Shown: piece by piece, positions 6,636 to 42,029 of the stretch | Position numbering within the stretch: position 1 is the stretch's first letter | How the letters are laid out: each line of letters starts with the position of its first letter | Assembly (NCBI RefSeq): GCF_021245725.1 | Contig: NZ_JAJGSX010000001.1 | Span: 62,001-126,000 of the forward strand | DNA: 64,000 nt | Source: Pseudonocardia sp. TRM90224 | Lineage (GTDB): Bacteria; Actinomycetota; Actinomycetes; Mycobacteriales; Pseudonocardiaceae | Direction of reading: 5' to 3' | Made by a program: the position numbers and the translations under genes | The notes under the pieces: model-generated | Seen by the model: the letters and a program-made list of their open reading frames with translations, nothing else | Told to the model about the DNA's origin: nothing | Databases searched by the model: none

Positions 6636-6921
6636 GACCGAGACCCCCTCTCGCAGCAGTGGTCGATGCGGGCCGAAGGACGATCCGAACTGCCGCGCAA
6701 AGAGCCGGTGAGCATGTTCAGCGTCATCCGCCTGCGTTCACATCCGCGGAATCCGCAGATCGAGCCGTTCCGATACCCAAACCACCACGTGGGTGCCGCC
6801 GCGGCGGGCCGCGGAACCCGGCCCGACCCTGATCACGGGGCGCACACTGGCATCCTGCTCGTGAATCGTGCTGCGTTCAGCAGCGCGGGAAATGTCCATG
6901 TGGATGGCGGGGGCGTGACAC

Positions 6922-9315: not shown

Positions 9316-12300
9316 CTACCTACCAGCAGGCGGTTCGAACGTCCACGACGCCGTCCTGCCCCGTTCCATGTCACCGGCGAACGCGGTGACGTAGGAGGGG
9401 CCGACGCCGACCACCGGTACGACGAGCGTCTCCTCGTACGCACCGTTGCGCGCCTCGCGAACCACGAGGTCGTAGACGACGCGGTTGCGGACGGTGGGCG
9501 CGGTGCCCCGCTCGAAGAGCGATTCCTCCTCGCGCAACCCGAACTGCGCCCCACGCCGGACGGAGTCCGGCGCTGCTCCTGAGAACCCGATCTCGACACC
9601 GGACGTCGCCCCACCGTCACGTCCGAACGGTCGCTGGCGGGTGGAGGTGCGGGCGGTTGCGGTGAGCCACTGCGTCCGGGACACCGAGCGGATCTCGACG
9701 TTGCCGCGGCCGGCCACCACCGTCTCCTCCTCGAAGGGGTGCGCACGCAGCGCGAGATCGATCTGCACGTCCCGGCCCATCCTGTTGTGCACGACGAGCG
9801 GTGCCATCCCGGCCCCATCGGGTGTGGCGAGCCCGTGCAGGAACGCGGTGAGGGCATCCGGCTCGAACATCCGGTGGACCCGTGCGCGGTTCCGGTTCGC
9901 CTCGGCCTTGGTCAGCACCCCGTGGCGCACGAGCTCGGCGAGCACGTCGGTGACGAGCTGGTCGACACCGGGGGCCGCTCCCGGCTTCGTCGAACTCGCA
10001 CCACGCGCGTCGGCGTAGGCGTGCAGGGGGATCCGGCCTTCGCGCGACCCGGCCAGCCGAGCGGACGAACCGGTGTCCGACACAGCCGGTGCCGCCAGGC
10101 CGTTCGGGATCAGCCGCAGCGCGCTGCCCTCGACGGATGTGGTCCGCACCTCCGTACCGGGCAGCGGCCGGCCGTGCAGCGACGCGCTCAGCCACGTCGA
10201 GATCTCGAGCGTGATGCCCTGCCGGACGAGTTCGACGCCGTCGAAGGAGGCCAGCCCGCGCAGGTCGGTCTGCTGCAGGGTGTCCTCCGCCGACCGCCCG
10301 CCGCCGACCGTCGAGCTGATCGAACCCTTGCCGATGCCCGTAGCCGCGATGCCGACCCTGCCCCCGATCGCTCGGCTGCGGGCAGCTCCGGCCGTTTCCT
10401 GGCCGTACCCGTACGCCTGCAGCAGCAACAGCACCGAGTTGTCATGCCCTTCGCGGACGGCGGTTCCGACGTATCGGAAACGGAGTCGCTGCACGACGAA
10501 CCGGTGGCGGTACGCGTCGGCGACGGTGTTGCCGAGGCGGACGGGGATGCTGGTGACCATCCCGTCTTCGGCGAGCATCCGGTCCCGGTGACCCCACACC
10601 CGGTTCGTCGCGTAGAGGTTCGACAACGTCGTGTGGACGACGGGGTCGCGGTCGCTCAGGCCGGGCACCAGCTCGTCCAGGTGGCGCAACGCCTCCGGCA
10701 GGACGACCTGGTCCACAAGCACGACCGGGAACCCGTACTCGGCGGTGTAGTGCCGCTGCAGCTGCGGGGTCAGCACGACGGAGTCGTCCTTCGAGTCGGC
10801 TGCCCCGTTGCGGTACTGCTCGGCGAGCTGGACCTCGACCGGCGCGAATCGGACGGCCGCGAAGGCGAGCACGTCGTCGAGAGCTGGTGGGACGGAACCG
10901 GCGAGGAATCCGACGGCCTCGGCCAGCCTGGCGGCGAGCAACTCGGGAGCGTGCTCCTCGGACAGCTGCGGAGCCGACCCGCCCGCGGCCTCGCGGTCAG
11001 CGGCATAGCGGCCGTACAGCCCGGCGAGGGTCGGCTCGTCCACCACGAGGTCGTACTTCTTCTTCCCGCTGTCGTCGAGGTGGAACCGCAGCGTGCGCTC
11101 GACGGCGTCCGCGATGTGTCCCAGCGGGACGAGCACCGCTTCCCCCGCCGCGTAGGCACGCAGCACATCCCGTTCGGGCGTCACCAGCACCGCCGTGCCG
11201 TCGACGGCGTCCGTGCGGGTCCGGTCCTCGACCCGGACCGCGACGGTCGTCGTGAACCGCAGCAGACGCAGGACCTGCTTGCCGAGCTCGACCACCAGCC
11301 GCTCGATGCCCATGATCCGCAGCAGCCCGGTGGACCAGCTGCGCCCACGTGACCACGACCCCGACGGACTCGCTGCGAACCCGAGATCGCTCTGCTGCCG
11401 GAAGGCGCCGCCGAGCCCGAAGCTGAACTTGTGGCCGCGGGACCGCCCCCGGCTGCTCCCGAGGCTGCCCATGGTGAAGTTGATGAACCCGTGCACCATG
11501 TCGAGCAGGGCGACGACCTTCGACTTCCCGGCCGTGGCGCGCAGCGTCACGACGACCTCGACCGCTCGGCCGCCCGCCCCGCGCGCCACCACGGTCAGCC
11601 GCTGCTCCACCTGCAGGAGGTCCAGGAAGGACGACTGGACGGTCTCGACGCTGGTCGCCTCGATCAGCTCCTGCTCGACGGCCGGGTCGAGGCGAAGGCC
11701 CTGCGCGTCCAGCAACCGGCGGACGGTACCCAGCAGGTCGCCGGGATCGACGGCGTAGGGGTTCGCCCGGTACAGGAGCGTCACCGGCGTGTCCTGCCAT
11801 TCGGCGTCCACGAACGGATCGGCGACCCGTCCGGTGTCGACGGGCAGCATGTCGCTCGGGAACAGGACGTCGAGGGTGATCGCGCCCCGCGCGATCTCCG
11901 TCGTCCCACTGCCGTCCGGCGTGAGCGCGACGACCATGTCGAACCGGCTTGAGAAGGCCGCGGTGTCCGTCGTGGGTTCGGTGAGCGAGACCGCGTTCCC
12001 AGTCGCTCCTTGTGAGTCCCCGGCGTTGCGGCCGCGATCCTGCGCGAACCCGCCCTCCCCCGACATCGCGGTGTCGGTCTGATCGCCGTCGAGCACCGGG
12101 TCCCTGTCCTCACCGAACAACACCGTGCGCGCCATCGAGACCGCCCAGCCGAACCCGCGCGACCGCGACCTCGACGTCACCGACGTCGCGGACATGATGC
12201 TCAGCGCAACCGGGACCCTGGCGAGGCCGCGGCCGCGGTAGGAGAGCTCGCCGTCACCCTCCAGCCGGACGTCCAGCCGGAATCGGCGCGCGACAGCGTC

Positions 12301-27300: not shown

Positions 27301-30300
27301 GGCGGCCATCGTCCTCGACAACGAGTCGAACCGCCTGATGTCGGCATCGATCTGCGTCATGCGGCCGGCCCACGCCGGATCGCCGGCACCGGACACCATC
27401 GCCATGTCGGCGCCGCGCAGCGCGGCGTCGGCCGCCGTGACCCGGTCCTGCACGGAACGGAGGTTCCCGTTGTAGGCCTCGGTCGCCGCGTTGAGGCTCC
27501 GGATGCCCGCGTTGAGCTCGTTGGCCCACTTCTGCGTCTTGTCCGGTGAAGCGTCGAACGCCGCCCTGTCCTTCGCCAGCTGGGTGGCGAGCCCGTCGAG
27601 CCGCGCCCGCTCGCCACCGAGGCCGAGCGCGGCGTTGTCCGCGAGCGCGCGTTCACGCTGCAGGTTCTGGAGGTTCCGCTGCGCGATGTCGATCAGGTTC
27701 GGGTCGCTGTCGCGCTCCTTCGCGGACAGGCTCGGGTTGATGTCGACCAGCTTCTGGACGACCTGCGGGTTGCCCTGCAATGCGATGTCGGCGTTCTTGG
27801 GGTCCTGCGGCATCTTGACGGCCCGGTTGACCCCGTCGATCACGCCCCGCGCGGCAAGCCATTCCTGCAGCGCGCCGGCCTTCTCCGTGCCCATCTCGGC
27901 ATCGATCTCACGCATCGTCGGCAGGATGCCGCCGAGCTCCTTGGCATCGATCTTCTTGTCGTTGCGGCGGCCGTTCTCGAAACCGCCCGCGACATCACGC
28001 ATCTTCTGCACGACGGTGGGGTGCTTGGCCGCCATCGAGTCGTCGGTGATCCGCGCCCCGTAGTAGGAGGCGGCCGCGAGGTCCTGCTCGACGCCCGACA
28101 TCGGGACGAGCTTGTTGTACCGCTCCTTCTCGGCCGCCGGCAGCGACTCGTACATCTGCTTGGTCAGCGGCGGCAACATCAGGTTCGGGTCGTCCGGGTT
28201 CGCCACCCCCATCTGCCGTGCGAGGTCGTTGTCGAGGGCGTTGTGCAGCGAGGGGCGCTGCCTGACCTTGTCGGCACCCAGCCACCAGCTTGGGCCGACC
28301 TCGCCCTTCCACTCGTATTGCTTGCCGCTCAGTTTCGTGGGGTAACACGCGCCGGCACACGGCTGTGCGGGGTCGAACCGCCCGCCGGAGCAGTCCTTCG
28401 CGTCCGTGCAGTAGTAGCCGCGGCTGGCGGGGTCGTCCATGCGCGGTGGCCCGATGTTGTTGCCGTAGTGCATCCCGATGCCGCAGGTCGCGGCCCGGCA
28501 GCCGAGGTACTCGTTGGTGCGGCTGCTACCGGTGGTGCATGCTCCCTTGCAGATCACCACCTCGCCGTCGCCGTTGGTGTCCGGGGTGATCGTGGTGATG
28601 CGGCAGCCCTTGGCCTTGCATTGGGAACCGACGCCGGTCGGGCTCACGTAGCTGATCGGGACCTCGGACCTGTTCGTGTACGAGAAGTAGCCGTTCGGCG
28701 CGCCCGGCCGGGCGCGGAACTCGTGGTCCATCTCGCAGTTGAGGCACGCGGTCACGCCGGGTGTCGCGCCGAGGCTCGAGTAGGGCTTGCCCTTGGCACC
28801 CGGGTAGGGGTGGGTCGTCACGCCGTAGAGGCATGCCCCGGTGCAGGTGTCCTTCGTGACGGCTCCGGGAGGCGCGGTCTTCGTGCACTGACCGGTGCAC
28901 TGCAGCCGGCCGCCCTTGCCGTTCTCGTCGGTGAACTCCCCGCTCAGGACGTCGCCGTCGCGGCCGATGCCTGCGTTGGCCATCTTCCACCCGTTGGCGA
29001 GGGTGATCTCGCCGGCCTGACCGGTGATCCGGATCGAGCCGTCGGTCATCGTGCCGCGTGAGTCGAGCCCTCGGGTGAACACCTGGGTGAGCCCTGCGCG
29101 GCCGCCCTGCGCCACGATCTTCGTGCCCTCGGCGGAGGTCAGCTCACCCGAACCGGTCCACGTGAAGGCGCCGCGGGTCCCGTTCTCCGACCGGCCCGTG
29201 ATGGCGGCGTCGATGCCGCGGATGTCGAACTTCTCCATCTTGTCGCCGAAGCCGACGCTCCCGCTGCACCCGTCGGGACACGTCGTGCTGAACGGGTTCC
29301 CACCCTTGTCCGAGAGGTTCGCGACGTGCTCCTGCCCGGGCCGGGACGGCTTGCCGAACTCGACCCTCGAACCGCTACGACCGTCGACGGCTTCGCCGGT
29401 CCCCTTCACCCGGATCTGGCCGCGACCCTCGGCGTCCCGGGCGATCCGCAGCCCCTCGACGCCCTTGCCCCGGTCCCACTGGTCGCCCTTTCCGTTCTTG
29501 CCCGCAACGGTGGGGATCGCTCCCTCGAACCCCTTCCCCGGCGTGTACGAAACCGTCTCGCCGCTCGGCGAGGTGGCCTTCGCCACGGGACACGATCCGT
29601 GGCAGACGTCCTTGACGACCTTCCGGTCCGTGCCGCGCGCCTCGACCGTGCAGACAGCCCCGTCGCAGAAACCGGTCACGTACCGCTGATCCGGTCCCAG
29701 CTCGGAGATCTTCACGACCTTGCCGTCCTCGGTGATCGCCTCACCCGGTCCCAGCGTCTTCACCACCGTCTTCGGGGTGAACGAGACGTTGCCCGGGTTC
29801 CGGCAGGACGTGTAGGTGCCGGTGCAGCCGCCCTGGACGATGCCGTTCACCACGGTCACGTACGCGCCGCAGCCACCACCAGAACGACCCCCGCCGCTGC
29901 ACCGCGGCCGCCGCCACGAGTCGTAGGTGCCCTCGGCCGTCTCGAACCTGTTCGCCCCGTACGCCTCCGCGGTGTAGCTGGTCGAACAGTTCGCCGCACC
30001 CACGCACGTCGCCCCCGCATAGGCCTGACCGGGCCCGGCCGACGCCTGCGCGGTCACCATCACCCCGCCGCCGCCCATACCGCCGCCGCCGGAACCGCGC
30101 GCTGAAGCACGAGCCCACGAACCCGACTTGTGCGAAGCCGACGCCGACACCGAAGCCGAATAGGAGTGCTTGCAGTTCGTCCCCGGCGTCCCGTAGCAGG
30201 ACGCACCGGCCTGCGCGAACCCCGGCCCGGACGCCGCCGAAGCCGTCGTCATCACCTGGCCACCGCCGAACGTGCCCGCCCCGAACCCGACAGCGTTCGC

Positions 30301-33300
30301 ACGGGCGGCGCCCGCGGTGGCGGCGCTCTCGGCCCGGTAGGCGTAGGAGCACGTGGAGCCCGCGGTGCCCTGGCAGCCCGCAGCGGCCACGGCGAAGTCG
30401 CCGCCCGCGCCGATCTTCGTGGTAGCGGCGCACTCGCCGTCGGCGCCTGCGGTGCAGGCGGCGTTCCCGGTTGCCGTCGAACGACCGTTGCCCGCGACGG
30501 TGAGCGCGTTGCCATCGGTGCGCGCAATGCAGCCGGTGCCGGCGCACCCGGCCATCACCTCCGCGGTGTCCGCGGTGGCGGAGCCGCTGGTTCCGCTGCG
30601 GCACACCGGACCCGTGCAGTCCGCCGTCGCGATGGCGCGCGCCACCCCTGGCATCGGCGCGGCCGTACCGCTGCCTGCGGTTTCGGGGAGAACGGCGGGA
30701 GTGTTCGCCGCGACCGTGCGGCTGCGGGTGGTGACCGAGCACCCGCCCGAGCCGGACCCGCAGGATCCCTCGGCCGTGGCCGACGTCGACCCGGAGCTGC
30801 CGGTTCCCGTCGGGGCGACCGCGCTCGTCGCCGAGGTGGACAAGGAGATCCGGCAGGGGGCGACCCCGGTGCAACGCGACTCGCCGGAGGCGACCGATGC
30901 GCTGGTCGAGTCGGCACCCGCCCTGCGCTCGTCCGCGCCGGCAGCCGGGGTGAGCGCAGCAGCCGCGGCCTTCGCCCCACCGTCGGCGCTCGCCCCGGCA
31001 ACGGAGTCGACTGCGGCGGTGGCCGAGCAACCCGTCGGACAGTCGATCTGGACGCCGGCCTGCGTGGCACCGGACGCGCCCGGCAGCATCCGGGGGTTCT
31101 TCTCGTCAGGGCTGGCCGGGTCCGCGGCGCCGGAGTCGACCGAGGTGGTGGTGGCCGCGTTCGCCACGACTCCGCATCCGGTCGTCGCGCCGGTGCAGGT
31201 ACCGGTTGCGCGCGAGCGGTTCGTGGCGACGTCGTCAGCTGTGAAGGTCGCGTCCGCCGTGACGGCAGCGGTGCAGCGTGGCCCGGTGCAGCGGGCGAGC
31301 GCGGTGGACTCGCTCATCGTCGCAGGCACGCCGGTCACCGGCCGTGCAGCGACCTCGGCGGCCGTGCGGGCCAGCACTGCCTGCTGCTCCGCGGCCATGG
31401 CAGCCGCTTCCGCCCGATCCGCAACCGCGACGGATCGATCGGTGCTGCTCCCCGTCGTGTTCTTGCGTGCCGCGGTGGCCGCCCTGCGGGCCTCCCGTGC
31501 GGCCCTCTCTGCTGCGGCTGCCTGCGCCTCGGCCTGCGCTACCTGCGCGGTGTTCTTCTCGGCGACGATGTCGGCGACGACCTGGCCGGCACCGGCGGTG
31601 GAACTCGTCTGGACCTGGCAGCCACCCGACCCCGAGCAGCTACCACTCGATGTGGAAGCACCTTCCGGTGGGCCGCGCGCACCATTGGCACCGGTCACGT
31701 TCGTAGGGCCGTCGCTACCGGCGGCGGTACTGCTCGCGGAACCGGTGCAGGCCGTGCCTTGCGTGCAATCCAAGGTCGCATTCGCGATCGACCAACTGGA
31801 TGCGCCTGCGACCGTCGGCGCAGCGGAGTTCGCGGACGAACCGGGCGCGGTCGGCGCCGGAGGCGTCATCGGCTGCTGGTCGTTGCCATGCTTCTCCGGG
31901 TGTTCACCGGTCTGTTGCTGCTTCACCGTCGCGTTGGCCGTCGACTTCGCCTGCACGACCGGGACGATCACGTTCGCGTCCGGTCCGGTCGAGGCGCCCG
32001 AGTTGGTGACGGCCCGGCAGTCCCCACCGGAGACCCCGTCGCAGGTGCCCTCGCTGCGTGAGCCACGCGGATCCGGCGACACCGACGGGTCCGTCGCGGT
32101 CGCCGAGCTGGTGACCTTCCCATCGCAAACATTCGCGCCATCGCAGACCAGCGCCGCACCGGCGACCGACGCCGCGGACGGACCTGCTGGCAGCCGCGCC
32201 GCATTGATCGTGGCGTCCTTGCCCGCGAACGCAAGCGCCGCACCCGGCCCGCTGGAAGCGTTGGAGAGCGACTTCAGCTCGCAGCCGCCCGTGCCACCTG
32301 TACAGCTCGCGGTGCCCTCCGACGTCCGCGACGCCGTACCGCCCTCGAACGCCGTCGTTGTCGTCTTCACCGAGCCCGAGCACGAAGTGCCGGCCACGCA
32401 CGTGATCGTGGCGTCCGACGAGGCCGTCGACGTCGGGCCGGTGAGCGGCTGGCCGGCAACCGGCTTGCCCGTCGCCGGGTCGATCACCTGGAAGTCGGGA
32501 GCGCTGGAGGCCTTCGAACCGGCCTGCCCGCTGCACTCGCCGCCGCTCACCGTGCACTCCGCCGACGACGACGTACCGCGCGCGTCCGGCGTCACCGCGG
32601 TGTCCCGGGCGCTGGTCGACGCGGCCGCCGTGCCACCGCATCCGCCCTTGCCGCCCGTGCACTTGATGGTGGAGCTCGCGGTCGAGACGCTGACCGGGCC
32701 GGTCACCGTGCCGGTGTCGAGCTGCTTCATCGTGACCGCGGCCCGGTCGGCGACGGTCGTGCCGGAAGTGGCAGTGCAGTCGCCGCCGGTCGCCGAGCAG
32801 TTCGTCGAGCCCTTCGAGTCGCGCACGCCGGTGACGTCGCCGGAGGCGCCGCCGGTCGTCTCGGCGGCGGCAGTCCCCCTGCATGCCGGGTTGTTGCAAT
32901 CGACCCGAGCGGTGCCGCTGCTGTCAGCCATCAGCGCACGTGCCTTCGTGCCGACCGCGGAGCCCGACTCGCTGGTGCAGCCGCCGCCGGCCGCGGTGCA
33001 GTTCGCCCCGCTGGTCGTCTCCCTGACCACGGCACCCGCGACGAGCTTCCCGTCCGTGACGGTCGCGCCGGTCCCGACGCAGTCCTTCCTCGCGCAGTCG
33101 ACCCGCACCGACGAACGGCTCTCACCGGCTCCCGTCGCGCGCTGCGCCGCCTTCGCCCCGCTGGACGCCTCGCACCCACCGCTGGTGACGGTGCAGTTCG
33201 CCGCGGCACCCGTACCGGCCTCCCGCTGCTCCATCGCCGCAGTTGCAAGGGCGGGCCCCGTGCCGGCGGTGATCGCCACCGGGGCCGGGATGGTCACGGT

Positions 33301-36132
33301 GGCCTTGCTGCCCGTCTTGGTGTCTGTCGCCGCCGCACCCTTGCAACCCGACGCACCACGACCACAGGCGACGTCGGCGGTGGCGCGGGCCTCGTTGCTG
33401 CCCCCGTTGTCGAGATCAACCTCGATCTTCGTGGCACACCCACCGGTCGTTGCCGAGCAGTTCGCCGACGCCGCGCCCGAACGGAAGTCCGCGCCCACGG
33501 TCGACGCCAGCTGCGTCTTCTCACCGCGGTCGCCGGTCTGACCGGTCTTGCTCCCGGTGCTGTTGGACTCGCACGCACCCGCAGCGCTGCGACAGCCCAC
33601 CTCGGCACCGGAGCGGTCCGCCACCGCGTCCACATCACAACCACCGGTGCAGCTCACCGCAGCAGCAGCACGCCCATCACCCGGCGGGGCATCCGTCGGA
33701 GCCGTGGCGGAGCCACGACACGATCCCGTGCCGGTCCTGCACTCCATCCCAGCACCGCTCTTGCCCGCCTGCGACGACTGCTCGCAATCCCCGCCACCGA
33801 TCGAGCACCACGCGTCGGCCTTGTTCTCAGCTGCCGACGCATTGCTGCCGCAGCCCTGGTCGGCGCCGGTCAGCACACACGACGCCGAAGCCTTGTTCTC
33901 GCCTTCACCCGTCGATGCGCCGCAACCCGACGACACCCCGGCGAGTGCGACACAGCGGTCCCGCTCGGTCTCACCGTCGGCGCGGTCGGTCACCGAGCCG
34001 CACTCGACGAACACCCCGCTCGACCCGCACCCCGCAGCCGAACCATCCCGCGGTGCATCGTGCGGCACCCCGGCCGGACGGTCCCGGTTCGCCGCCTCAC
34101 GCAGCTCGTCGGTCGACCGGTACAGCGTCTGGCGGTCCTGCTCCAACTGCGCGGCGCTGCGGGCGTACTCGTCCGCGCCCATCTTCGCCTTGCCCGCCTC
34201 CAGCGCGGTCTCCCGCGTGGAGATGTCACGGTGCCCGTCGACAACCTCATCGACCAGCTTCGCGCGGTCCTCCGACAGCTTCGCCTTGTCCTCGTCGGCC
34301 TTCGCCGCGAGCTCGTTGTGCGCGGTCTCCCGCGCGGCCAGCTCGTCCGCGGTGATCCGACCGGCAGATGCCTGCTTGCGCGACTCCTCCAGCTCGGCGG
34401 CAGAGGTGTCCTTCTCGATCCGGCCTTGCAGTGCCTTGTCGACCTGGTTGGCGTCATCCCAATGGTCGTGGTCGTGATCGTGGTCGTGGTCGGACGGTGG
34501 GCCGCGCGCGCTCATGGACGAGGCCGGCCGCGAGCGCAGCGAGTCCAGATCACCGCACGCGGACATCGACCGGCACTGCGCACGCGCCGACGACTCGTCC
34601 AGTTCGGTTCCGGCGAGCGGCTCCCCGCCCCCATCGTGGGAACGCTTCATCTCCGAGCCCGCGGCAACGAGCGCCGCACCGACCTCGTCCTGCAGGCGGC
34701 GCGCCGAACCGGCCCCGTCGGAGGGGTCACCGGAGGACAGCACGTCCTTCGCCAACGTCGAGATCCGGTCCACCACATCCGGGTGCTCGCGTTCGATCGC
34801 ACGATCAGCCAGATCGAGCGCCCAGTCCACATCGACGGAGAACCTCTTCGCCGCTTCACGAGCGATGTCGAGCGCCCGCTCCACCGCGGCGCCGCGATCA
34901 CCCGAACCGGCCGCCTCGTGCAGGTCCTCGAAGTCTCCCTGCAACTGCTCGGGCAGCTCACCCGCCCGCTGCGCCACGTCCGCGGCCCACTCGGCGGCGT
35001 CCTGCTCTGCGATCTCGCCACGTCGATCCCCGTGCGCCCGCTCCCCGGCGTCCCTCGGATCGTCGTCGTCCCGGCGCTCGCCACCGGCCTCGTCGACCAA
35101 GCTCGCCGCCCATTCGCGGACGTCGGCCTCGATGTCCTCACCGTCGACCGCTCGCTCCGCGAGGTCGACAGCCCGGTCGGCATCCACCGACAGCCGACGC
35201 CCATCGTCGTCCGGCTGCTCGCGGTCGGCTCTCGACTGCTCGACCAGGCCGGTCACCCACTCCTGAACATCACCGTCGTCGTGCTCGCCACGTTCGTCGC
35301 CGCCGTGCTCGTCGGGCCGACCCGAGCCGCCTGTGGGACGGTCCGTCGGCTCGCCCGACAGCCACTCCCGAAGCTCGGCGGACAGCTCGTCGCCATCATG
35401 CGCAGCGTGTTCTGCAAGCTCCGACGCCCACCGGCCCGCCTCATCGGCAGCCTTCTCCGCGAGCTCGGGTTCGAGATCGTCGTCCCCAGACGCACCCGAG
35501 TCGGAGAGATCATCCGAGTGGTCCCTGATGTCGTCCGCCTGCTCGGGCTCACCATCGCCGTCATCGCCCACCGCTGAACGCGTCTCGGGCGCAACGTCCT
35601 CCTGGACGCTTTCGGTCGCCTCGCTGGAGCCGCCCGACTCGGTGTCGTCGTCATCCACGACCGGCAAGTCCGACGGGTCCGGATCTTCTCGAGCGGCGTT
35701 CTCGTCGGCGCCTTCTGAATAGCTCGACGATTCCGTTGATTCGTCGTTCTCCGGAGATTCGGAATCATCCGACCCGCCACGGTCGTCCGCCTCAGAATGG
35801 TCGGACCCGGAATCTTCCGAATCCGCGCCGTCGGCCGACCCGGAATCGTCGGAGTCATCTCCGCCAGCAGCATTGAACTGGTTTCCGGCGGGTCGGTCCT
35901 TCGCTGCCCTCAGTACCGACGTGGTGGGCACCACCACGACGGCAGCGGATGCGGGAGTTGCCAACAGCGCTGCCCCCATCCACAGCGTGCCGACCGCAAC
36001 CAGGAGACCGAGGGCCCAACGCACGATCACCCAGAACCGACTTCTCGCCGTCATTCGCAGCTTGACCGGCCGGACGCCGGCGCGCACGGCGAGCCCACAG
36101 GCTCCACCACCGCACACTGCGCGTCCGAACAT
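9316..36132 (-). CDS. Giant mosaic membrane/secreted protein, 8,938 aa
   Basis: One uninterrupted frame of 26.8 kb. The ATG at 36132 has GAGG 9-12 nt upstream; ATG at 36054 is an alternative. Order of regions: signal peptide (hydrophobic 34-58, likely cleavage after ATPASA at 63); Asp/Ser-rich acidic stretch (about 91-215); EW-L helical repeats (about 215-410); His/Asp tract (546-557); coiled coil (about 557-685); cysteine-hairpin repeats (about 697-2600); helical region with a DUF4781-like segment (about 3125-3345); Pro/Gly-rich linker (about 3375-3725); one TM helix (about 3755-3775); nuclease-like strand pair (about 4065-4086); membrane block 1 (about 4449-4760); LysM-like module (about 5140-5191); membrane block 2 (about 5560-5980); DUF1023-type hydrolase (about 6337-6648, Ser6540) with a partial second copy (about 6676-6757); helical region; beta-rich C-terminus with SRSRG repeats (about 7380-8938). 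No type VII or polymorphic-toxin signature is obvious. Function unknown; a very large cell-envelope protein is my inference. Confidence 0.93.
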   Translation of the reverse strand: MFGRAVCGGGACGLAVRAGVRPVKLRMTARSRFWVIVRWALGLLVAVGTLWMGAALLATPASAAVVVVPTTSVLRAAKDRPAGNQFNAAGGDDSDDSGSADGADSEDSGSDHSEADDRGGSDDSESPENDESTESSSYSEGADENAAREDPDPSDLPVVDDDDTESGGSSEATESVQEDVAPETRSAVGDDGDGEPEQADDIRDHSDDLSDSGASGDDDLEPELAEKAADEAGRWASELAEHAAHDGDELSAELREWLSGEPTDRPTGGSGRPDEHGGDERGEHDDGDVQEWVTGLVEQSRADREQPDDDGRRLSVDADRAVDLAERAVDGEDIEADVREWAASLVDEAGGERRDDDDPRDAGERAHGDRRGEIAEQDAAEWAADVAQRAGELPEQLQGDFEDLHEAAGSGDRGAAVERALDIAREAAKRFSVDVDWALDLADRAIEREHPDVVDRISTLAKDVLSSGDPSDGAGSARRLQDEVGAALVAAGSEMKRSHDGGGEPLAGTELDESSARAQCRSMSACGDLDSLRSRPASSMSARGPPSDHDHDHDHDHWDDANQVDKALQGRIEKDTSAAELEESRKQASAGRITADELAARETAHNELAAKADEDKAKLSEDRAKLVDEVVDGHRDISTRETALEAGKAKMGADEYARSAAQLEQDRQTLYRSTDELREAANRDRPAGVPHDAPRDGSAAGCGSSGVFVECGSVTDRADGETERDRCVALAGVSSGCGASTGEGENKASASCVLTGADQGCGSNASAAENKADAWCSIGGGDCEQSSQAGKSGAGMECRTGTGSCRGSATAPTDAPPGDGRAAAAVSCTGGCDVDAVADRSGAEVGCRSAAGACESNSTGSKTGQTGDRGEKTQLASTVGADFRSGAASANCSATTGGCATKIEVDLDNGGSNEARATADVACGRGASGCKGAAATDTKTGSKATVTIPAPVAITAGTGPALATAAMEQREAGTGAAANCTVTSGGCEASSGAKAAQRATGAGESRSSVRVDCARKDCVGTGATVTDGKLVAGAVVRETTSGANCTAAGGGCTSESGSAVGTKARALMADSSGTARVDCNNPACRGTAAAETTGGASGDVTGVRDSKGSTNCSATGGDCTATSGTTVADRAAVTMKQLDTGTVTGPVSVSTASSTIKCTGGKGGCGGTAAASTSARDTAVTPDARGTSSSAECTVSGGECSGQAGSKASSAPDFQVIDPATGKPVAGQPLTGPTSTASSDATITCVAGTSCSGSVKTTTTAFEGGTASRTSEGTASCTGGTGGCELKSLSNASSGPGAALAFAGKDATINAARLPAGPSAASVAGAALVCDGANVCDGKVTSSATATDPSVSPDPRGSRSEGTCDGVSGGDCRAVTNSGASTGPDANVIVPVVQAKSTANATVKQQQTGEHPEKHGNDQQPMTPPAPTAPGSSANSAAPTVAGASSWSIANATLDCTQGTACTGSASSTAAGSDGPTNVTGANGARGPPEGASTSSGSCSGSGGCQVQTSSTAGAGQVVADIVAEKNTAQVAQAEAQAAAAERAAREARRAATAARKNTTGSSTDRSVAVADRAEAAAMAAEQQAVLARTAAEVAARPVTGVPATMSESTALARCTGPRCTAAVTADATFTADDVATNRSRATGTCTGATTGCGVVANAATTTSVDSGAADPASPDEKNPRMLPGASGATQAGVQIDCPTGCSATAAVDSVAGASADGGAKAAAAALTPAAGADERRAGADSTSASVASGESRCTGVAPCRISLSTSATSAVAPTGTGSSGSTSATAEGSCGSGSGGCSVTTRSRTVAANTPAVLPETAGSGTAAPMPGVARAIATADCTGPVCRSGTSGSATADTAEVMAGCAGTGCIARTDGNALTVAGNGRSTATGNAACTAGADGECAATTKIGAGGDFAVAAAGCQGTAGSTCSYAYRAESAATAGAARANAVGFGAGTFGGGQVMTTASAASGPGFAQAGASCYGTPGTNCKHSYSASVSASASHKSGSWARASARGSGGGGMGGGGVMVTAQASAGPGQAYAGATCVGAANCSTSYTAEAYGANRFETAEGTYDSWRRPRCSGGGRSGGGCGAYVTVVNGIVQGGCTGTYTSCRNPGNVSFTPKTVVKTLGPGEAITEDGKVVKISELGPDQRYVTGFCDGAVCTVEARGTDRKVVKDVCHGSCPVAKATSPSGETVSYTPGKGFEGAIPTVAGKNGKGDQWDRGKGVEGLRIARDAEGRGQIRVKGTGEAVDGRSGSRVEFGKPSRPGQEHVANLSDKGGNPFSTTCPDGCSGSVGFGDKMEKFDIRGIDAAITGRSENGTRGAFTWTGSGELTSAEGTKIVAQGGRAGLTQVFTRGLDSRGTMTDGSIRITGQAGEITLANGWKMANAGIGRDGDVLSGEFTDENGKGGRLQCTGQCTKTAPPGAVTKDTCTGACLYGVTTHPYPGAKGKPYSSLGATPGVTACLNCEMDHEFRARPGAPNGYFSYTNRSEVPISYVSPTGVGSQCKAKGCRITTITPDTNGDGEVVICKGACTTGSSRTNEYLGCRAATCGIGMHYGNNIGPPRMDDPASRGYYCTDAKDCSGGRFDPAQPCAGACYPTKLSGKQYEWKGEVGPSWWLGADKVRQRPSLHNALDNDLARQMGVANPDDPNLMLPPLTKQMYESLPAAEKERYNKLVPMSGVEQDLAAASYYGARITDDSMAAKHPTVVQKMRDVAGGFENGRRNDKKIDAKELGGILPTMREIDAEMGTEKAGALQEWLAARGVIDGVNRAVKMPQDPKNADIALQGNPQVVQKLVDINPSLSAKERDSDPNLIDIAQRNLQNLQRERALADNAALGLGGERARLDGLATQLAKDRAAFDASPDKTQKWANELNAGIRSLNAATEAYNGNLRSVQDRVTAADAALRGADMAMVSGAGDPAWAGRMTQIDADIRRFDSLSRTMAASGDPNQVPYAPTIGRYATASELAYAHARENPVLPQVRLGRVRALPSTMSRDTLYDQQAAINMPSYLYHPDKGLRDQFQVRYDADVLAGAAATRTADQWLKDNMRRGDMSQDQVVERLRQENTGAGGKVDEAAVAKAAKAIADAGGVVTAIPMMYSDPGPGSSKDARFDDSTLFRVKKADGTEVYVDRTGAVYPSIDNFRNNNELYAEDGKLTWLADDASGSIRSVTEAARYTSTLDRVLDIGTAVVVTGGLVVMTVGSGGVAAAGAFAAGAATAVDLTRSGITLYNRAKRNQSIAFDDPTAGWIWADMAVTALPFVGRLAGLAAKGAKAHRAIVHSFDVAGEVGDVGLYAAGVYQTYSQWNTMTPATRASAMEGLMLGGMMLSARPAGLVARRAMDNAAHAFRGNLGLALSPLNDGWMDGPLPFPSYLLPAAAQGVPPITAPGAVPPAPPARWVPTSSGLLVPPSVNPAPLRQPGSALPPGSTPPPAGWAVNSTGLLVPSSIAQTNPGPAPSGSSALVLPGSSSATGSSSATQPRNGPPAVAGPAVTTGQQAFAPTGSMALQTGVVPVVQHSSAQLIVPGRVGHGAANSWSGTGTAPAVASTDPLAGLSGLPSSTSGPSSNPLLGSLAASAEPIGTQSASTVSAGSSTGTPVIGAAAQNEPASLGVLLTAQASIHPVPAVGPADPAGAAAATSVLPGPGSTTAAATGGAPGWSMATAGRPVPGSGLPAPPSPATPPAAPPATPPANGGPHRNGGGSGGNSGGDGGRSGTSGPPDGRNGTGKAGLLLGVPPVGNSGPIDGIMEWLWSSPVPQVLAVVAALVVAVVVAVHLARARGPPAVRLAKRSDLRWIAGRMVVNPDGAGVVLAAEGDPLRARGWYLRGGGSDFVVVLHGDQDGAYVVEGGITIRLRAGQLAALLNALPEFRKWRARAGERARVVIPACGLGGCSVEMARLQRDLNALVVAPDSDVWVHHENGISWVTGGGRWMQADGSGSMLEVPAPPVLTTRTALAGAVRVGPPGVASPIVPRGPPVRAGPELTPAQEEQVDAHLRRYGGDVIRRNAQLWLQVSGAAATALVKKGWAGTARGFVAEDLALDEARTLAGRGERVLKNARLLLLGADDEVLGELAEIDYLVGGTVVSVKVKRKLFQRKKDEQHRRFVFATRSDPESLRQAYREIKPDVGRSTLDRVVRAVIRSNGAADIPFEQFSRDHPRQADPTNPIVLITAKGQGDGREMEWTPAEIDALLIASVRRLAARYLQETTTSEPPAASGAAVDRLRAAARAVLDVPKGKEYGEQLVRRHEVAERLLVELGLTDRSVLFATYGDRIDRSEMGALLHVLLLRESGIDGLGGVRGTPGGDGAPFGGLPAGVDPVEFAAVLDQWRSAHNARVVGKRPRLEGAAIGRFVTMIKGLDDRSRVEAVRAAGRSARGLAKVLPGVFAKLVMSEWAQAQRHPDQRQAFKQRISDLLSHMGPTERRALIEKMLPWASQAQKEILQSIHQKKGWLGKAFSLVGLALGWLGLSNSVFAPAGEALPVDASATPAWLETVLNSGLWGDLAAFLAANGPGIGELVLIAAVPLVLKAVGAVWARAPPPVRAVPGAVRSAIERAERRIYLPIVPVLVLAAVAWLVGPVVAALLLPLIALFPHAKLGPREGRGLVAYLKELRWERAWMLALTVPLWQVPLVSWPLLAFLAFEVVGAGALLLGVLSTSMSKGLREESANREKYPFTVVADGQVFAGFTFFGFVRIALLAQAYQILGTGFTPMPGVPAPKVTGPRLRQRLLYWLASYYKGTADKSLDLFVFWQIGLAVGFGNVWAAHLRLSGKDAEAKVRERKLTFDLLMGPGRQLYRVLFWVSRGVARLLPGGAGRWLRGMPERRIARAFVQRLNHAQRMLVRTMAEQASQRERRGGARSFWARLRLLADFSVNAVNRAGIRATIEALPGAFEERMQARNRIQQERLEAKLAAATGRRRARLDAELDRVRAAGRGMVVPRLHRGRHLDRAVARNLARQARLRAALAELDAALAIERSAKVPAADRIRALVTEQARIRTLLADLERAGRTLGTIPGGLESAPATPPSRRWRSAAIVFGSTVVGMVLPALLGFAPAVAGPLLHNTASSDGFGVMAVGAAAPVLSWAAGVVITVAAVRTVAALIRIRGPPDPGAVRRVVVGAIAAGVLGLGVLLSGHADASGSGAPVQPGAATVVVLPGEVLGEVAERAGTTRKALVGANPDRFPTRKSQDRIRAGERLRLPDPAPAPQPDVEQSQVPPPPVPVVTDNGVTPGWRTWLGGAAATIGLLVLARWRAAAKRAKAWAQLRVTWRGIGRGQGRVSGAVALVEWLIGRLALDPRGVRMSRLDGADLGDPRLDAFRTGLSNGDGAVAELVAELVAAGLIRVETGTDGRLLVPSGAFAELLARAPPDLLAAMGRDLGAVIGGRGLPASEVAAAVLVALRDGVWAAPAGRGSAKASPKQLYGPTRTAARAYLAAVARLDRLRTQLSALEKIEPVLRARLTAKARAAARWRAAGSFPARMVAFVPALVRTAALYLLTRRLPPDLRRTAPEAVRAALTDRAAAVEASLAGLADAESCAAVAASHAAAAAGVGRKQAKKAEARAREGGKRFIPTVVGLFGAFPGQATSIASIAGMAIAATLGVEAGWVANEGANAAVAAALVGGFFALLGDRSIKTMWPMALLGAAGAVALLVLGLSPTQDAFMPALAAIGSMGTSAALAQAWTERNHPAAPELKDQRAGRNELANRVMALVFPLAVTGSVQAFGVPTTLIGMSVVAAALTSLTLLVLRGRKPGLEPGVSVSRPAALKGWFRQVLATPRGLLRAVMSIPLVTLLTGLPGVLLGGALFDTMVRVSDPIATLAALGIASGVVAFVRGVATILLSSRYEAFKALVARKGAIAAAVGGKRAVGGVQESRLLRAATLLPSLVILPAAAFAYAQNLVTVTLLLTVGSVVVALPRLALRRWAEGATAASLTNIAKTSSFVVGSKVSVLVMGASIAAVGLGATVAVLVAAAGSLARSLLVLAIVTGALTAVVGHVVAHLRLGILDELGPVLKRAGADEAAPSKITGALRANGLHDLGSVRALLQAGEWAPWFLRSAPQWRERRIAALGLEPHELELLRAALELFMAERAAARRPAAAPAPRIVGSQPVRKARNRLLAMLPWRASDRQIRGALARYADAGRRNAALRAAVRAALAAWTDRSTPEQLELRVRLQLLGIDPAFADPASDQGARVRLERLLKLLDMAAAANDAAVARLEQQLRERGGSDRRAARKPSADVLRRGASVVGLVGAMLALPALLGGVRPAGAQEAARIGGSDVGARAFDAVAARPEMVWVAVLVVAATAVIVVGRAGLSAKRAGPTPAGRSGRSGAHDADPRGPPAGAAPAEVAGWWQRLDDVQRAAVIEGSLFDIGNLDGIPVEVRDRVNRAALNRAYNRIPWLAAEVRRQRLGHVAARNARLKFAGIYALMARLDADPAALLLAFDLAGKGRFAVSIGNPDTARHVAVYIPGMGNDLSTADVMIEWIDALVDEAGSQGQRDLAAVVWLGYEPPSGFARAAARTTARAAAPLLHRFLGGLRVHSTAQLTVVAHSYGSLTAGLTAADERFGLPADALVLVGSPGVGAGHVSVLRMRPGQVWASATDRDFVGRVSARFHDVVPTATRFGARVFDSGTGGRGVVLPHSGYFVRGSIGLRNIARIVTGSPADITRPDGPSTHRDAPWDGSPATAGVVHRAYGRISWLAFQIWNRGLGGRAEAASRPKIAAISALKIALDRNPAMRVLEFDLVGRGRFVVRIGGPSTTPLNLPGTWAAMSRSEQLLRRVRPGFPEVVQVENTEAGVRPVGWLGRGLAVIGLLATGLGASNTLLPGVGEAGAVGGPVGGTAVADGGSWWATLLDLVAGQPATWVLGAVVGALVVVHVVRSVLARAPPGRLRLRLRIGHDVVAAGRAVRAAADAVERAAKLPELVSAVGAAATAGWSARRIARRAGLPVVVVQAAVVAAGVQERWAREPAPVDAAPRQATYERVLAELGALAGRAGEASAEAHALLAELVALSDGGWQGHDLLRRVAAGLGVELRWTGRGTVLISGRDRPGRELPAERVLAAAHWLAIRIGDQVEHARVEVEAVAWLGALRAIGAGTPPIVGAINELAAVALWEPSRRAVAVAVAQDVLRDGEFHADRGGLSVRGAQLVAEVATAAVDEADRRAALRRDMAGLASGVLALADALNPGSAEFRAGVDALERRIVVLERRLRLASRAAAALVKVKKSEARKARKARAVALRLAGDAASGRDVGAPERARKHAAEAVARKSDAARMQRRADAYVAVRREAEQALRAYAEIRALLGQLRGPPAGRRQRVRSLQARVVAATAEVTRYQAVLAGAAPARDAYTNAKVTGALPGVAAITELANERLSALGSRRRYSEHDIRQHLLAQVSRLFSPSGVSIPLADGQEMRVSMVAGPAAEVPAPERVASETMTGNMVQGGAGASATQTRVVGMSLGGAFDVGPASISVNIDGGSSASLTSEANQSWQGGGVQDNRGSSEVWESEVSTTVWFDVPGATASEPRVIGGVSGQAAAEVVSFLVSHAGIERGPPGTAQAPGGRAADAAFSGVVVGATGLDELAGEVDAALREQRPDSGDRTRKQVFAQVEGVLRGDLPRAVNDPAGLLPELLTTDDGTALGEITVTADVLDGRSDPAHQPRPTGPRSDHEKVEDLYVGFSKVGTTSSSSRSRGISLGVAVAVLAEAVLGALWLTTLPGPAFAAASVLVAVVAAVLHVFRLRVSMRGAWSRSRGVSMGVYREAISPEVHRSPQTQGYEIHTRVRVVVTPVSGDRTPIAVERVVGFLVRMDEHDAWTFGFPVDASGVSPGPDGAPVVAGALDPSAPPGRLPLAPSWHGSGSEQVADTGMAATRNVHGVYDVRARVEADLVAFGLLPAEDPKDWSTDENVIVAQLENRRRVRDVVSPARVAAGTGQMRRAGRTVVLEVPAAATDRVRVPGRDAVARRFRLDVRLEGDGELSYRGRGLARVPVALSIMSATSVTSRSRSRGFGWAVSMARTVLFGEDRDPVLDGDQTDTAMSGEGGFAQDRGRNAGDSQGATGNAVSLTEPTTDTAAFSSRFDMVVALTPDGSGTTEIARGAITLDVLFPSDMLPVDTGRVADPFVDAEWQDTPVTLLYRANPYAVDPGDLLGTVRRLLDAQGLRLDPAVEQELIEATSVETVQSSFLDLLQVEQRLTVVARGAGGRAVEVVVTLRATAGKSKVVALLDMVHGFINFTMGSLGSSRGRSRGHKFSFGLGGAFRQQSDLGFAASPSGSWSRGRSWSTGLLRIMGIERLVVELGKQVLRLLRFTTTVAVRVEDRTRTDAVDGTAVLVTPERDVLRAYAAGEAVLVPLGHIADAVERTLRFHLDDSGKKKYDLVVDEPTLAGLYGRYAADREAAGGSAPQLSEEHAPELLAARLAEAVGFLAGSVPPALDDVLAFAAVRFAPVEVQLAEQYRNGAADSKDDSVVLTPQLQRHYTAEYGFPVVLVDQVVLPEALRHLDELVPGLSDRDPVVHTTLSNLYATNRVWGHRDRMLAEDGMVTSIPVRLGNTVADAYRHRFVVQRLRFRYVGTAVREGHDNSVLLLLQAYGYGQETAGAARSRAIGGRVGIAATGIGKGSISSTVGGGRSAEDTLQQTDLRGLASFDGVELVRQGITLEISTWLSASLHGRPLPGTEVRTTSVEGSALRLIPNGLAAPAVSDTGSSARLAGSREGRIPLHAYADARGASSTKPGAAPGVDQLVTDVLAELVRHGVLTKAEANRNRARVHRMFEPDALTAFLHGLATPDGAGMAPLVVHNRMGRDVQIDLALRAHPFEEETVVAGRGNVEIRSVSRTQWLTATARTSTRQRPFGRDGGATSGVEIGFSGAAPDSVRRGAQFGLREEESLFERGTAPTVRNRVVYDLVVREARNGAYEETLVVPVVGVGPSYVTAFAGDMERGRTASWTFEPPAGR
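15860..17125 (-). other. DUF1023-type alpha/beta hydrolase plus partial second copy within the giant protein
   Basis: Residues about 6337-6648 carry the full DUF1023 layout: WWQRLDDVQRAAVI, IGNLDGIPVEVRDRVNR, HVAVYIPGMGND, the nucleophile elbow VVAHSYGSL (Ser6540; first Gly of GxSxG replaced by Ala), LVGSPGVGAGH and a late catalytic-His region (FHDVVP). Immediately after it, about residues 6676-6757 repeat only the front half (HRAYGRISWLAFQIW, VLEFDLVGRGRFVVRIGGP) and then stop before the catalytic elbow. The first copy may be enzymatically active; the second cannot be. DUF1023 enzymes are actinobacterial serine hydrolases of mostly unknown substrate. Confidence 0.75.
18115..19450 (-). other. 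Polytopic membrane block 2 within the giant protein
   Basis: About residues 5562-6006 contain roughly a dozen long hydrophobic segments, starting at FIPTVVGLFGAF and including TLLVLRGRKPG-bounded helices and SLVILPAAAFAYAQNLVTVT. The density and length of helices resemble a transporter-sized bundle embedded in the chain. I cannot name a transporter family. A smaller block of about six helices lies at 21855-22790. Confidence 0.7.
20560..20716 (-). other. LysM-like module within the giant protein
   Basis: About residues 5140-5191. It has VVVLPGEVLGEVAERAG, the TTRKALVGAN segment, then IRAGERLRLP. This matches the LysM pattern of a beta-strand with PGD-L, a helix, a hydrophobic-N helix, and a final RIRAGQ-L-IP strand. 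LysM binds N-acetylglucosamine-containing glycans, so a peptidoglycan contact is plausible. Hydrophobic helices flank it on both sides (about 20740-21060 and 20400-20450). Confidence 0.65.
26100..26765 (-). other. DUF4781-like segment within the giant protein
   Basis: About residues 3120-3345. It contains YVDRTGAVYPSIDNFRNNNE, DGKLTWLADD and SVTEAARYTSTLDRVLDIG, followed by a hydrophobic hairpin (VVVTGGLVVMTVGSGG and an Ala-rich helix) and FVGRLAGLAAKGAKAHR. The order resembles what I remember of DUF4781, a domain shared by some bacterial and insect proteins, but I cannot run a profile. Function of that family is unknown. Confidence 0.35.
28330..34045 (-). repeat. Cysteine-hairpin repeat array inside the giant protein (about residues 697-2600)
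   Basis: At least two dozen units with paired cysteines of the form C-[TS]-x(2-5)-G-x-C, for example NCSATTGGC, NCTVTSGGC, NCTAAGGGC, NCSATGGDC, ECTVSGGEC, SCTGGTGGC, VCDGANVC, SCGSGSGGC, GCQGTAGSTC, TCVGAANC, placed about every 25-40 residues and separated by Ala/Thr/Ser-rich strands. In an exported protein such close pairs probably form disulfide-closed beta-hairpins. The last third (28330-29900) is more complex, with CxxxC pairs such as CTGACLYG and CRAATCGIG. I know no named family with exactly this unit; composition alone gives only weak hits in my memory. Confidence 0.75.
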
Positions 36133-36546: not shown

Positions 36547-37761
36547 TCAGGACCAGGTGACGGGCAGCGCGTGGACGCCGTAGATGTTCATATCGGTGCG
36601 CAGCGCCACCTCACCGGGCGGGACGGCCAGCGCGAGTGTCGGGAATCGGCGCAGCAGCCCCGCGAAGCCCGCGCGCATCTCGATGCGGGCGAGCTGCTGG
36701 CCGAGGCACTGGTGGATGCCGTGGCCGAAGGCGACCTGACCGCGAACCTTTCGGTGCACGTCGAGGGTGTCGGGGTGCTCGAAGCGCAGCGGGTCGCGGT
36801 TGGCGGCCAGCAGGGAGACGACGACGGTCGAGCCTGCGGGGATCGTCTCGCCGCCGACCTCGATGTCCTCCACGGCGTAGCGGTAGAAGATGTCGGCCAC
36901 CGACAGGTAGCGCAGGAGCTCCTCGACGGCGTCGGGCAGGAGCGACGGGTCTGCGCGCAGCTCCGCGAGCTGATCGGGGTGTTGCAAGAGCGCGAACGTG
37001 CCCAGCGCCAGCATGTTCGCGGTGGTCTCGTGTCCCGCGAGCAGCAGCAGGAAGGCCATGCCGGCAAGCTCTTCGAGGGTCAGTTCCTCGTCGCGGGCCA
37101 GGTCGGAGAGGATGTCCTCGCCGGGCTCGGCGCGCTTGGCCGCGCACAGCTCCCCGAGGTAACCCATCATCGCGCCGAACGCGGCCATCTTGGCGTCGAG
37201 GTCGATGTCGCGCTCCATGAACCTCGAGGAGTTCGACTGGAACGTCTCGCGGTCGGTGTAGGGGACACCGAGCAACTCGCAGATCACCAGCGACGGCACC
37301 GGGAGCGCGAACTCGCCGACCAGGTCGACCGGCGGGGTCAGGCGGGCCAGCGCGTCGAGTTGCTGCTCGGTGATCGCGATGATGCCCTCTTCGAGCTGCT
37401 TCATGCGTTTGACGGTGAACGCGCCGGTCAGCTTGCGCCGCAGCCGGGCGTGGTCCGGCGGGTCCATGCTGATGAACAGCCCGGGCACCTGCGGGGACGG
37501 GTCGGTGGCAGCCGGCATCCCCGGCGTTTCGAACGGCACATGGATCACGCCGATGTCCTGGCGGCTGCTGAACCGGGTGTCGGACATGACCTGCCGCACC
37601 GCGTCGTAGCCGGTTACCAGCCAACCCCGGTGGCCGTCCGGGAAGACCATCGGGCTCACCGGGCGGGTTGCACGCAGCGCGGTGATCTGGCTGGGCGGGT
37701 CGAACGGGCCGGCGTCGCGGTCCATCGGCAGGCCTTGGGGCACGGAAGCTGTCTGAAGCAT
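36547..37761 (-). CDS. Cytochrome P450, 404 aa
   Basis: Soluble bacterial P450 of CYP105/CYP107-like size. It has the oxygen-binding I-helix LLLLAGHETTANM, the ExxR-containing helix near PDAVEELLRYLS, and the heme-ligand loop FGHGIHQCLGQQLARIE with Cys352. Start ATG at 37761 has a GAGGGAGA ribosome-binding site. It needs a ferredoxin and reductase; none is present in the window. Upstream (37807-37835) are three 11-bp-spaced heptamers shared with the DUF4097-SARP operon promoter, so control by the adjacent SARP-like regulator is likely. The substrate is probably a specialised metabolite or xenobiotic, which cannot be resolved further. Confidence 0.95.
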   Translation of the reverse strand: MLQTASVPQGLPMDRDAGPFDPPSQITALRATRPVSPMVFPDGHRGWLVTGYDAVRQVMSDTRFSSRQDIGVIHVPFETPGMPAATDPSPQVPGLFISMDPPDHARLRRKLTGAFTVKRMKQLEEGIIAITEQQLDALARLTPPVDLVGEFALPVPSLVICELLGVPYTDRETFQSNSSRFMERDIDLDAKMAAFGAMMGYLGELCAAKRAEPGEDILSDLARDEELTLEELAGMAFLLLLAGHETTANMLALGTFALLQHPDQLAELRADPSLLPDAVEELLRYLSVADIFYRYAVEDIEVGGETIPAGSTVVVSLLAANRDPLRFEHPDTLDVHRKVRGQVAFGHGIHQCLGQQLARIEMRAGFAGLLRRFPTLALAVPPGEVALRTDMNIYGVHALPVTWS

Positions 37762-37779
37762 CGGGGTCTCCCTCGTGGT

Positions 37780-37837
37780 GATGTGCCACCACGATCACGG
37801 GGAGCCCGGACACGGGCCTGTCACCGCCCTGACACCG
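37780..37837 (-). promoter_or_regulatory. SARP-type operator/promoter of the P450 gene
   Basis: On the plus strand, the heptamers CGGACAC (37807), CTGTCAC (37818) and CTGACAC (37829) repeat every 11 bp, the geometry of SARP direct-repeat binding sites. The whole 58-bp block aligns without gaps to 42030-42087 in front of the DUF4097-SARP operon, including a conserved ACCACG-TCAC stretch on the gene-proximal side that may hold the -10 region. This is operator architecture by analogy; binding is inferred. Confidence 0.65.
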
Positions 37838-37841
37838 CCGG

Positions 37842-38008: not shown

Positions 38009-38025
38009 CAGCGTCAGGGCACCGG

Positions 38026-42001: not shown

Positions 42002-42029
42002 GTCGGATCTCCCGTGGTCGGACTTCGTG

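Follow-up and report, generated by a model that had tools for sequence, protein, structure and literature searches.

A probably exported, modular and toxin-like giant protein of 8,938 residues, member of a leader-defined family in Pseudonocardia

Giant proteins which are exported with a stalk first are represented by CdiA and the filamentous haemagglutinins. For Actinobacteria, giant secreted toxins have been described whose SecA-like ATPase and MFS domains are “predicted to facilitate their secretion” (Kaur et al., 2021; PMC8195603). Moreover, gigantic actinobacterial proteins with several toxin domains were reported, the longest toxin of that data set being SACTE_5178 from Streptomyces with 13,652 aa (Zhang et al., 2012; PMC3482391). 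In the passages of these sources considered here, giant actinobacterial toxin-like proteins are treated in passing only, as part of comparative studies. The Pseudonocardia family presented below closely fits the description of giant secreted toxins given in those passages, and its kind is therefore already known.

The window, i.e., the whole stretch of 64,000 nucleotides that was analyzed, derives from an assembly of 9.38 Mb in 113 contigs. It includes a gene consisting of one minus-strand frame (9316-36132), which starts with the ATG at position 36132, has no internal stop and encodes a protein of 8,938 aa. The G+C content at third codon positions amounts to 0.74-0.94 across all 30 bins of 300 codons, and since it is coding-like in every bin, the entire length of the gene appears to be translated. 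A conserved leader begins at about the same ATG. On these grounds the uninterrupted 26.8-kb frame of the original prediction was confirmed, and a sequencing or frame artefact is unlikely, given the third-position G+C, the alignment of the leader at the ATG and the dN/dS values against paralogues. Five core-bearing paralogues are encoded in the source genome, designated P2 (10,947 aa), P3 (11,721 aa), P4 (7,667 aa), P5 (at least 4,525 aa, running into the contig end) and P6 (10,332 aa). The protein is composed as follows (other genomes are numbered with G):

9316..36132, minus strand: whole reading frame, 8,938 aa (ORF and translation)
35932..36132, minus strand: conserved leader/signal peptide (residues 1-67), common to leader-type giants (seven N-termini aligned)
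34513..35931, minus strand: acidic low-complexity region (residues 68-540; composition)
34033..34512, minus strand: charged segment ahead of the stalk (residues 541-700), kept in paralogues (comparison)
28345..34029, minus strand: cysteine-pair stalk (residues 702-2596) with 46 close pairs (cysteine count; residues 690-1320 modelled as all-beta)
26293..26772, minus strand: Pfam match to DUF4781 (residues 3121-3280), within which a pair of overlapping windows at 3182-3213 is hydrophobic (hydropathy scan)
24898..26145, minus strand: Pro/Ser/Gly-rich linker (residues ~3330-3745; composition)
24811..24867, minus strand: strong hydrophobic segment (residues 3756-3774; hydropathy scan)
24196..24786, minus strand: conserved module (residues 3783-3979), which in P3 lies close to the C-terminus and in other giants at other places
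22189..22599, minus strand: membrane block (residues 4512-4648); the module after it is common to P2, P3, P4, G004 and MH-G8
20557..20700, minus strand: LysM-like stretch (residues 5145-5192), by eye only, without Pfam match
18169..19329, minus strand: multi-segment membrane module (residues 5602-5988), also in P2 and in giants of G022 and G452
16330..16833, minus strand: Abhydrolase_8/DUF1023 alpha/beta hydrolase (residues 6434-6601; Pfam), motif AHSYG at 6538
9343..14421, minus strand: core module (residues 7238-8930), beta-rich with long predicted hairpins, kept in giants and Streptosporangiaceae proteins

Several of these elements had been foreseen from the sequence. The proposed signal peptide corresponds to the conserved leader, the acidic region shows up as a net charge of -44 in the first block of 250 residues and of -38 in the second, the Pro-rich linker was recovered in translation and composition, and the DUF1023-type hydrolase matched Abhydrolase_8 with an E-value of 2.2e-29 (Pfam) and keeps its nucleophile motif. 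The proposed cysteine repeats are present but extend over about 1,900 residues and not over several thousand, and the LysM-like module is visible by eye but has no Pfam match in this protein; LysM matches occur in its relatives. The assumption of two membrane blocks was an undercount: a simple hydropathy scan yielded 27 hydrophobic windows, a count to which the leader and a few overlaps contribute, and the majority lies beyond residue 3,755. The DUF4781 match (E 2.9e-10) had been missed. The protein had also been stated to have no domains of non-ribosomal peptide synthetases, polyketide synthases or adhesins, which agrees with Pfam and NCBIfam scans; condensation, adenylation and ketosynthase domains are absent, and all three identities were rejected. 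The NCBIfam scan gave no family above cut-off, and Pfam gave no match to SecA, MFS, ART or GT4 and no WXG100/LXG domain at the N-terminus.

The leader is a conserved, hydrophobic sequence with an AxA-type site at its end (ASA in the 67-residue leader of the 8,938-aa protein). It was found in seven of eight full N-termini (that of G450 is without it), which align with a mean column identity of 65%. With matches counted up to an E-value of 0.01, a search of 62 Pseudonocardia genomes gave 63 leader rows in 18 genomes, two of which have the leader split into two rows. In more than half of the rows (33) the open frame reaches 5,000 aa or more, and in 21 it reaches 10,000 aa or more; the longest frames have 21,891, 20,151 and 19,926 aa (all lengths counted from stop to stop). 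Homologues above 5,000 aa, a search for which had been suggested with the original prediction, were thus retrieved, and many are longer than 8,938 aa. The source genome alone contains ten leader rows, four of them on frames below 1,300 aa; their frames total 194 kb or 2.1% of the assembly. Five matches in 392 other genomes of the class were weak (best E 2.1e-5), located on short frames and taken as ordinary signal peptides; the leader is therefore regarded as Pseudonocardia-specific, as far as such sequence matches indicate.

To the left of the window, on the same contig and strand (G000:C1:1-32204), a leader-bearing giant of 10,734 aa with a SecA-like motor is encoded, whose start is situated about 39 kb from the end of the 8,938-aa gene. 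Two giant frames of 12,410 and 15,668 aa lie close together on one strand in G011 (C23:215003-287672).

The cysteines are distributed very unevenly. In the 8,938-aa protein 92 of 99 fall into residues 702-2596, arranged as the 46 close pairs, and three were counted in the last 6,338 residues (2601-8938), where 57 are expected from the cysteine rate of 0.90% in 105 predicted genes near giants. Fourteen giants were counted altogether. They contain 86-115 cysteines each, 74-107 of them in a dense, mainly early region, where 37-52 close pairs were counted, and 0-10 behind it; the computed dense region takes in residues upstream of the true start in P2, P3 and P4, its end was computed at 12,075 and 10,868 in two G034 giants, stretched by late cysteines, and a few hundred terminal residues of P6 and the 20,151-aa G022 giant lie outside the stretches counted. 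Besides these 14, the 12,410-aa giant of strain MH-G8 (G011:C23) has lost some of its stalk cysteines, and P5, whose start is cut, has ten cysteines in 4,525 residues. Cysteine pairs in the stalk together with a near-absence elsewhere fit a chain living in an oxidising place, and the pattern would be consistent with export of the whole chain into such a setting. For residues 690-1320, a part of the stalk with 18 cysteine pairs, AlphaFold with six sequences predicted a nearly all-beta structure (mean pLDDT 75, with 46-75 across the five models; pTM 0.72). A relationship of the stalk to a solved fold is not claimed, the best Foldseek match having an E-value of 1.9e-3 and a TM-score of 0.14. When a profile of the stalk was used on 298 genomes of the order, including just three Pseudonocardia genomes, the source genome alone matched, at four places.

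Further domains are carried by the sister giants. P6, the paralogue with the most similar N-terminal part, has an ADPrib_exo_Tox domain (ART; E 1.1e-12), the sole match in 12 chosen genomes. P2 and P3 possess SecA DEAD and P-loop domains as well as a trypsin-like protease domain; P2 has a weak FHA-like stretch and G004 an FHA match above cut-off. Eight of the giants then at hand matched the SecA profile. By simple patterns, the SecA motor motifs are complete in P2, P3 and the 10,734-aa giant of the source genome, complete except for the last one in G004 and incomplete in the other four. In six genomes chosen for their giants, 26 SecA_DEAD matches were obtained, six of which are single ordinary-length SecA genes of 975-1,004 aa. 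The remaining 20, and thus all non-housekeeping ones, are located in leader-bearing giant frames, with the leader assigned by contig and frame length. Leader frames of 5,000 aa or more number 28 in the same genomes; 20 of them have SecA, and eight, among them the 8,938-aa protein, do not. Between stalk and SecA a weakly hydrophobic segment is present in five of seven giants examined and absent from two. Pfam surveys of 27 and 30 giant pieces, considering the best 25 of 28 and the best 25 of 44 families, listed, among others, NUDIX, PP2C, MFS, trypsin, LysM and SecA, and further M20 peptidase, DUF3990, GNAT and cation efflux; caspase, OTU and MCF1-SHE are not among the best 25 families listed. 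Abhydrolase_8 occurs in 38 of 62 Pseudonocardia genomes, mostly on ordinary-sized frames; six further giant frames have it too, three of them from G010 and single ones from G011, G012 and G022. Leader-less giant frames with this domain comprise 21,225, 16,249, 13,068 and 16,490 aa (G010 C18 and C19, G012 C3) and possibly represent a second, different giant family in Pseudonocardia.

Comparison of the paralogues revealed a conserved N-terminus and C-terminal modules that diverge or are reordered. Over residues 372-1526, P6 and the 8,938-aa protein share 63% identity in blastp (69% when aligned codons are compared), and in the core they share 28%. The core is C-terminal in the 8,938-aa protein and internal in P2, P3 and P4, and in P2 and P3 modules which precede it in the 8,938-aa protein come after it (P2: 3969-4197, 4689-4816, 5621-6052). 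Three stretches of the 8,938-aa gene gave dN/dS values against P6 of 0.35, 0.88 (residues 1959-3184) and 0.54, and 0.39 was obtained against another giant of the source genome; dS is rough owing to codon bias.

A 700-residue C-terminal query matched in six of 60 genomes, the source genome included. Most matches are on frames of 4,525-15,668 aa, one is on a 2,627-aa frame from another family of the order and a weak one on a 221-aa frame. The 17-row core profile identified the module in eight of 62 Pseudonocardia genomes, six times in the source genome, and the 17 aligned copies are 25-35% identical to that of the 8,938-aa protein over about 1,700 residues. Across the class, seven of 393 genomes matched, including the source genome, four strongly matching genomes of another family, referred to here as Streptosporangiaceae, with frames of 3,255-3,355 aa, and two of a third family with weak and partial matches; a Nonomuraea and a Sphaerisporangium contig match as well. 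The Streptosporangiaceae core proteins have about 3,300 aa, and the one scanned starts with a WXG100_2 domain (Pfam). Upstream of each of the four core genes of this family lies a YbaB-like gene, identified by Pfam at one locus and by blastp similarity at the other three, and three of the four loci also have an adjoining conserved gene for a small protein of 116-127 aa. Directly after the core gene, the three loci reaching that far contain small conserved orphan genes, two each in L053 and L056 and one in L054, and a Pfam scan of three of them from two loci gave no match. These orphans are candidate immunity genes, and the Streptosporangiaceae loci would fit a T7SS-effector-like setting, as judged by their gene content.

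A core copy at G462:C1:1126110-1130825 is distributed over three reading frames and appears to be the remnant of a decayed giant gene. G162, a member of another actinobacterial family, has frames of 19,630 and 12,384 aa (C17 and C23; L044-L051) with weak partial core matches; in the former, about 8,300 residues are without NCBIfam match and about 6,700 without Pfam match. A plasmid origin was discarded, as the core had no match in 72,556 plasmid records.

For the 981 core residues starting at 7,372, AlphaFold with 17 sequences gave a model (mean pLDDT 80, pTM 0.73) which supports the beta-rich C-terminus expected from the sequence. The model consists of four units with helical parts between them, and every unit has two predicted strands that are about 30-55 residues long. 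The 11 best PDB matches of the model are all perforin, complement and pleurotolysin pores (E 3.5e-4 to 2.0e-2, TM-scores of at most 0.12), which presumably is due to its very long beta-hairpins. A motif pattern which we take to represent the MACPF signature was not found in the core, Pfam gave no MACPF match in the protein, and a sequence comparison with solved structures revealed no relative (best E 0.94). Matches in a viral fold library were weak (TM-scores of at most 0.10) and nothing is claimed from them. Six homologous repeats, which seemed good in an initial profile comparison, were abandoned, as a reversed-sequence control of 30 comparisons reached values up to 50.0. Three of 15 real pairs, those among units 2, 3 and 4, exceed this control (57.6-63.3), so that wider repetition would follow from the topology predicted for the four units of the model. 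Beta-amphipathicity had a mean z of 0.27 for the long strands (220 windows), 1.06 for short strands and 0.06 for helices, and the low value of the long strands lends no support to transmembrane strands. With low TM-scores, no MACPF signature, a partial repeat and no strong amphipathic alternation, formation of a pore by the core is a suggestion from the model.

The gene is surrounded by regulators and enzymes, of which the following were assigned by Pfam:

4524-6635: AAA protein
6922-9258: LuxR-type STAND regulator
36547-37761: cytochrome P450
38026-41298: SARP-type regulator
42754-44316: FAD hydroxylase

Together with a PadR regulator and a prolyl oligopeptidase-like gene, the P450, the SARP-type regulator and the FAD aromatic hydroxylase (36547-48783) possibly form a small specialised-metabolism locus. 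No immunity or secretion gene was detected among the ten scanned neighbours, and no small orphan gene adjoins the 8,938-aa gene among the predicted genes. The source genome encodes a type VII EccC. Comparison of paralogue loci yielded no clear recurrent neighbour; cross-matches concerned SDR dehydrogenases, regulators, a P4-to-window match and a G004-to-P4 membrane-protein match.

We consider it probable that the 8,938-aa protein is a giant exported, modular and toxin-like protein, one of a family in Pseudonocardia whose members most likely serve as weapons against other cells. A scaffold, an effector and a contact-dependent system had been named before without a choice among them; the effector or toxin-like option is best supported, by the ART domain of the N-terminally closest paralogue, the conserved N-terminus with diverging C-terminus, the WXG100_2-headed core relative in its Streptosporangiaceae setting and the two published descriptions of giant actinobacterial proteins. 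The leader family, the cysteine partition and the occurrence of Abhydrolase_8 in six other giants argue for the same reading. The leader would route the chain via Sec, and the acidic part and the cysteine-pair region would form an extracellular stalk stiffened by disulfide bonds. The cysteine-poor remainder may consist of interchangeable modules, with the DUF4781 segment and the multi-pass blocks as putative membrane-active parts and the long-hairpin core as a candidate element for crossing membranes or for delivery into other cells, the presumed targets. As its enzyme the 8,938-aa copy has the DUF1023 hydrolase; in other copies there is an ADP-ribosyltransferase domain, a trypsin-like protease, NUDIX, PP2C or the SecA motor. 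Several observations speak against the exported-toxin reading. The 8,938-aa copy has no recognised toxin domain, DUF1023 is common on ordinary frames in the genus, and ART was found in one of 12 genomes. No small immunity-like gene adjoins the gene, and the protein has no WXG match although the genome has a T7SS EccC. Moreover, the many hydrophobic segments could tether the chain in the producer's membrane, and NUDIX, PP2C, MFS and cation efflux domains are atypical of toxins.

A bolder version is conceivable, which we put forward tentatively. The giants might be single-chain delivery machines restricted to Pseudonocardia. They would combine one conserved leader, a disulfide-ladder stalk and swappable enzymes; a SecA motor would usually be built in after the stalk, and many copies would have the long-hairpin core as a membrane conduit. 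If so, one polypeptide of roughly 0.9-2.3 MDa would hold its own exit, reach, motor, channel and cargo.

The hydrophobic windows also allow the unlikely interpretation of a membrane-anchored envelope scaffold or surface organiser, with the stalk directed outward, the multi-pass blocks as anchor, and the hydrolase and the LysM-like part acting on the producer's own wall or lipids. Most of the 27 windows follow residue 3,755, relatives match LysM, FHA and PP2C, domains which are usual in envelope and signalling proteins, and where a weakly hydrophobic segment separates stalk and SecA, it could return the chain to the cytosol of the producer. However, the family is patchy (leader in 18, core in eight of 62 genomes), multi-copy and strongly diverging, unlike a structural part, and neither the ART domain of P6 nor the scarcity of cysteine outside the stalk agrees with a scaffold. 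The odd assortment of domains, the changed order of modules, the dN/dS of 0.88 against P6, the SecA copies with incomplete motor motifs, the split G462 core and the occurrence of split or short-frame leader rows, of which some may lie at contig ends, would be in line with a recombination-driven mosaic under weak constraint, in which captured fragments stand behind an export leader and the C-terminal two-thirds have little function. We regard this as improbable, since frames of about 6,000-22,000 aa remain open with coding-like composition, the core is conserved in 17 aligned copies, dN/dS is 0.35-0.54 in the three other comparisons and cysteine is depleted along long stretches. A CDI-like protein for contact-dependent self-recognition, whose paralogues act on close kin with immunity encoded elsewhere, would account for the ten leader matches in the source genome and the conserved N-terminus with variable C-terminus, but is very unlikely, as there is neither an immunity-like gene adjoining the 8,938-aa gene nor a clear recurrent neighbour among the compared loci, and the core is internal in P2-P4 and not a swapped C-terminal tip.

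With CdiA and the filamentous haemagglutinins the probable exported toxin-like giant shares the stalk-first architecture of an exported giant protein. It differs from CdiA in its Gram-positive host and its cysteine-pair stalk, and no haemagglutination/TPS domain or CdiB partner was found by Pfam in the protein or the ten scanned neighbours. MACPF pore formers are the best PDB matches of the core model, whereas the low TM-scores and the lack of signature and Pfam match set the core apart from them. The core also links the protein to WXG100-headed type VII polymorphic toxins through the Streptosporangiaceae proteins, but the 8,938-aa protein has a Sec-type leader in place of a WXG match. As in classical polymorphic toxins, the N-terminus is conserved and the C-terminus variable, whereas an adjoining immunity gene is lacking. 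The family resembles SACTE_5178, as it is described in the passage concerned (Zhang et al., 2012), in size, actinobacterial origin and several enzyme or toxin domains per chain. With the giants of Kaur et al. (2021) it has in common that the proteins are giant, actinobacterial, predicted to be secreted and composed of many domains, including SecA, MFS and ART (P6); the 8,938-aa protein itself is a single frame of thousands of residues with a predicted N-terminal export signal, and as a possible toxin domain it has the DUF1023 hydrolase only. The 8,938-aa copy differs from those giants by its lack of SecA, MFS, ART and GT4, and leader, stalk and core are unnamed in the passage describing them. 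No account of these three elements was found in the open-licence PMC papers searched, and within this scope the expansion defined by the leader, the stalk of cysteine pairs together with the depletion elsewhere and the long-hairpin core, as modelled, are new. Pseudonocardia offers many copies, an N-terminal signature for easy finding, a recurring non-housekeeping SecA and a core open to structure solution, which makes the question of how a megadalton polypeptide is made, exported and used directly testable.
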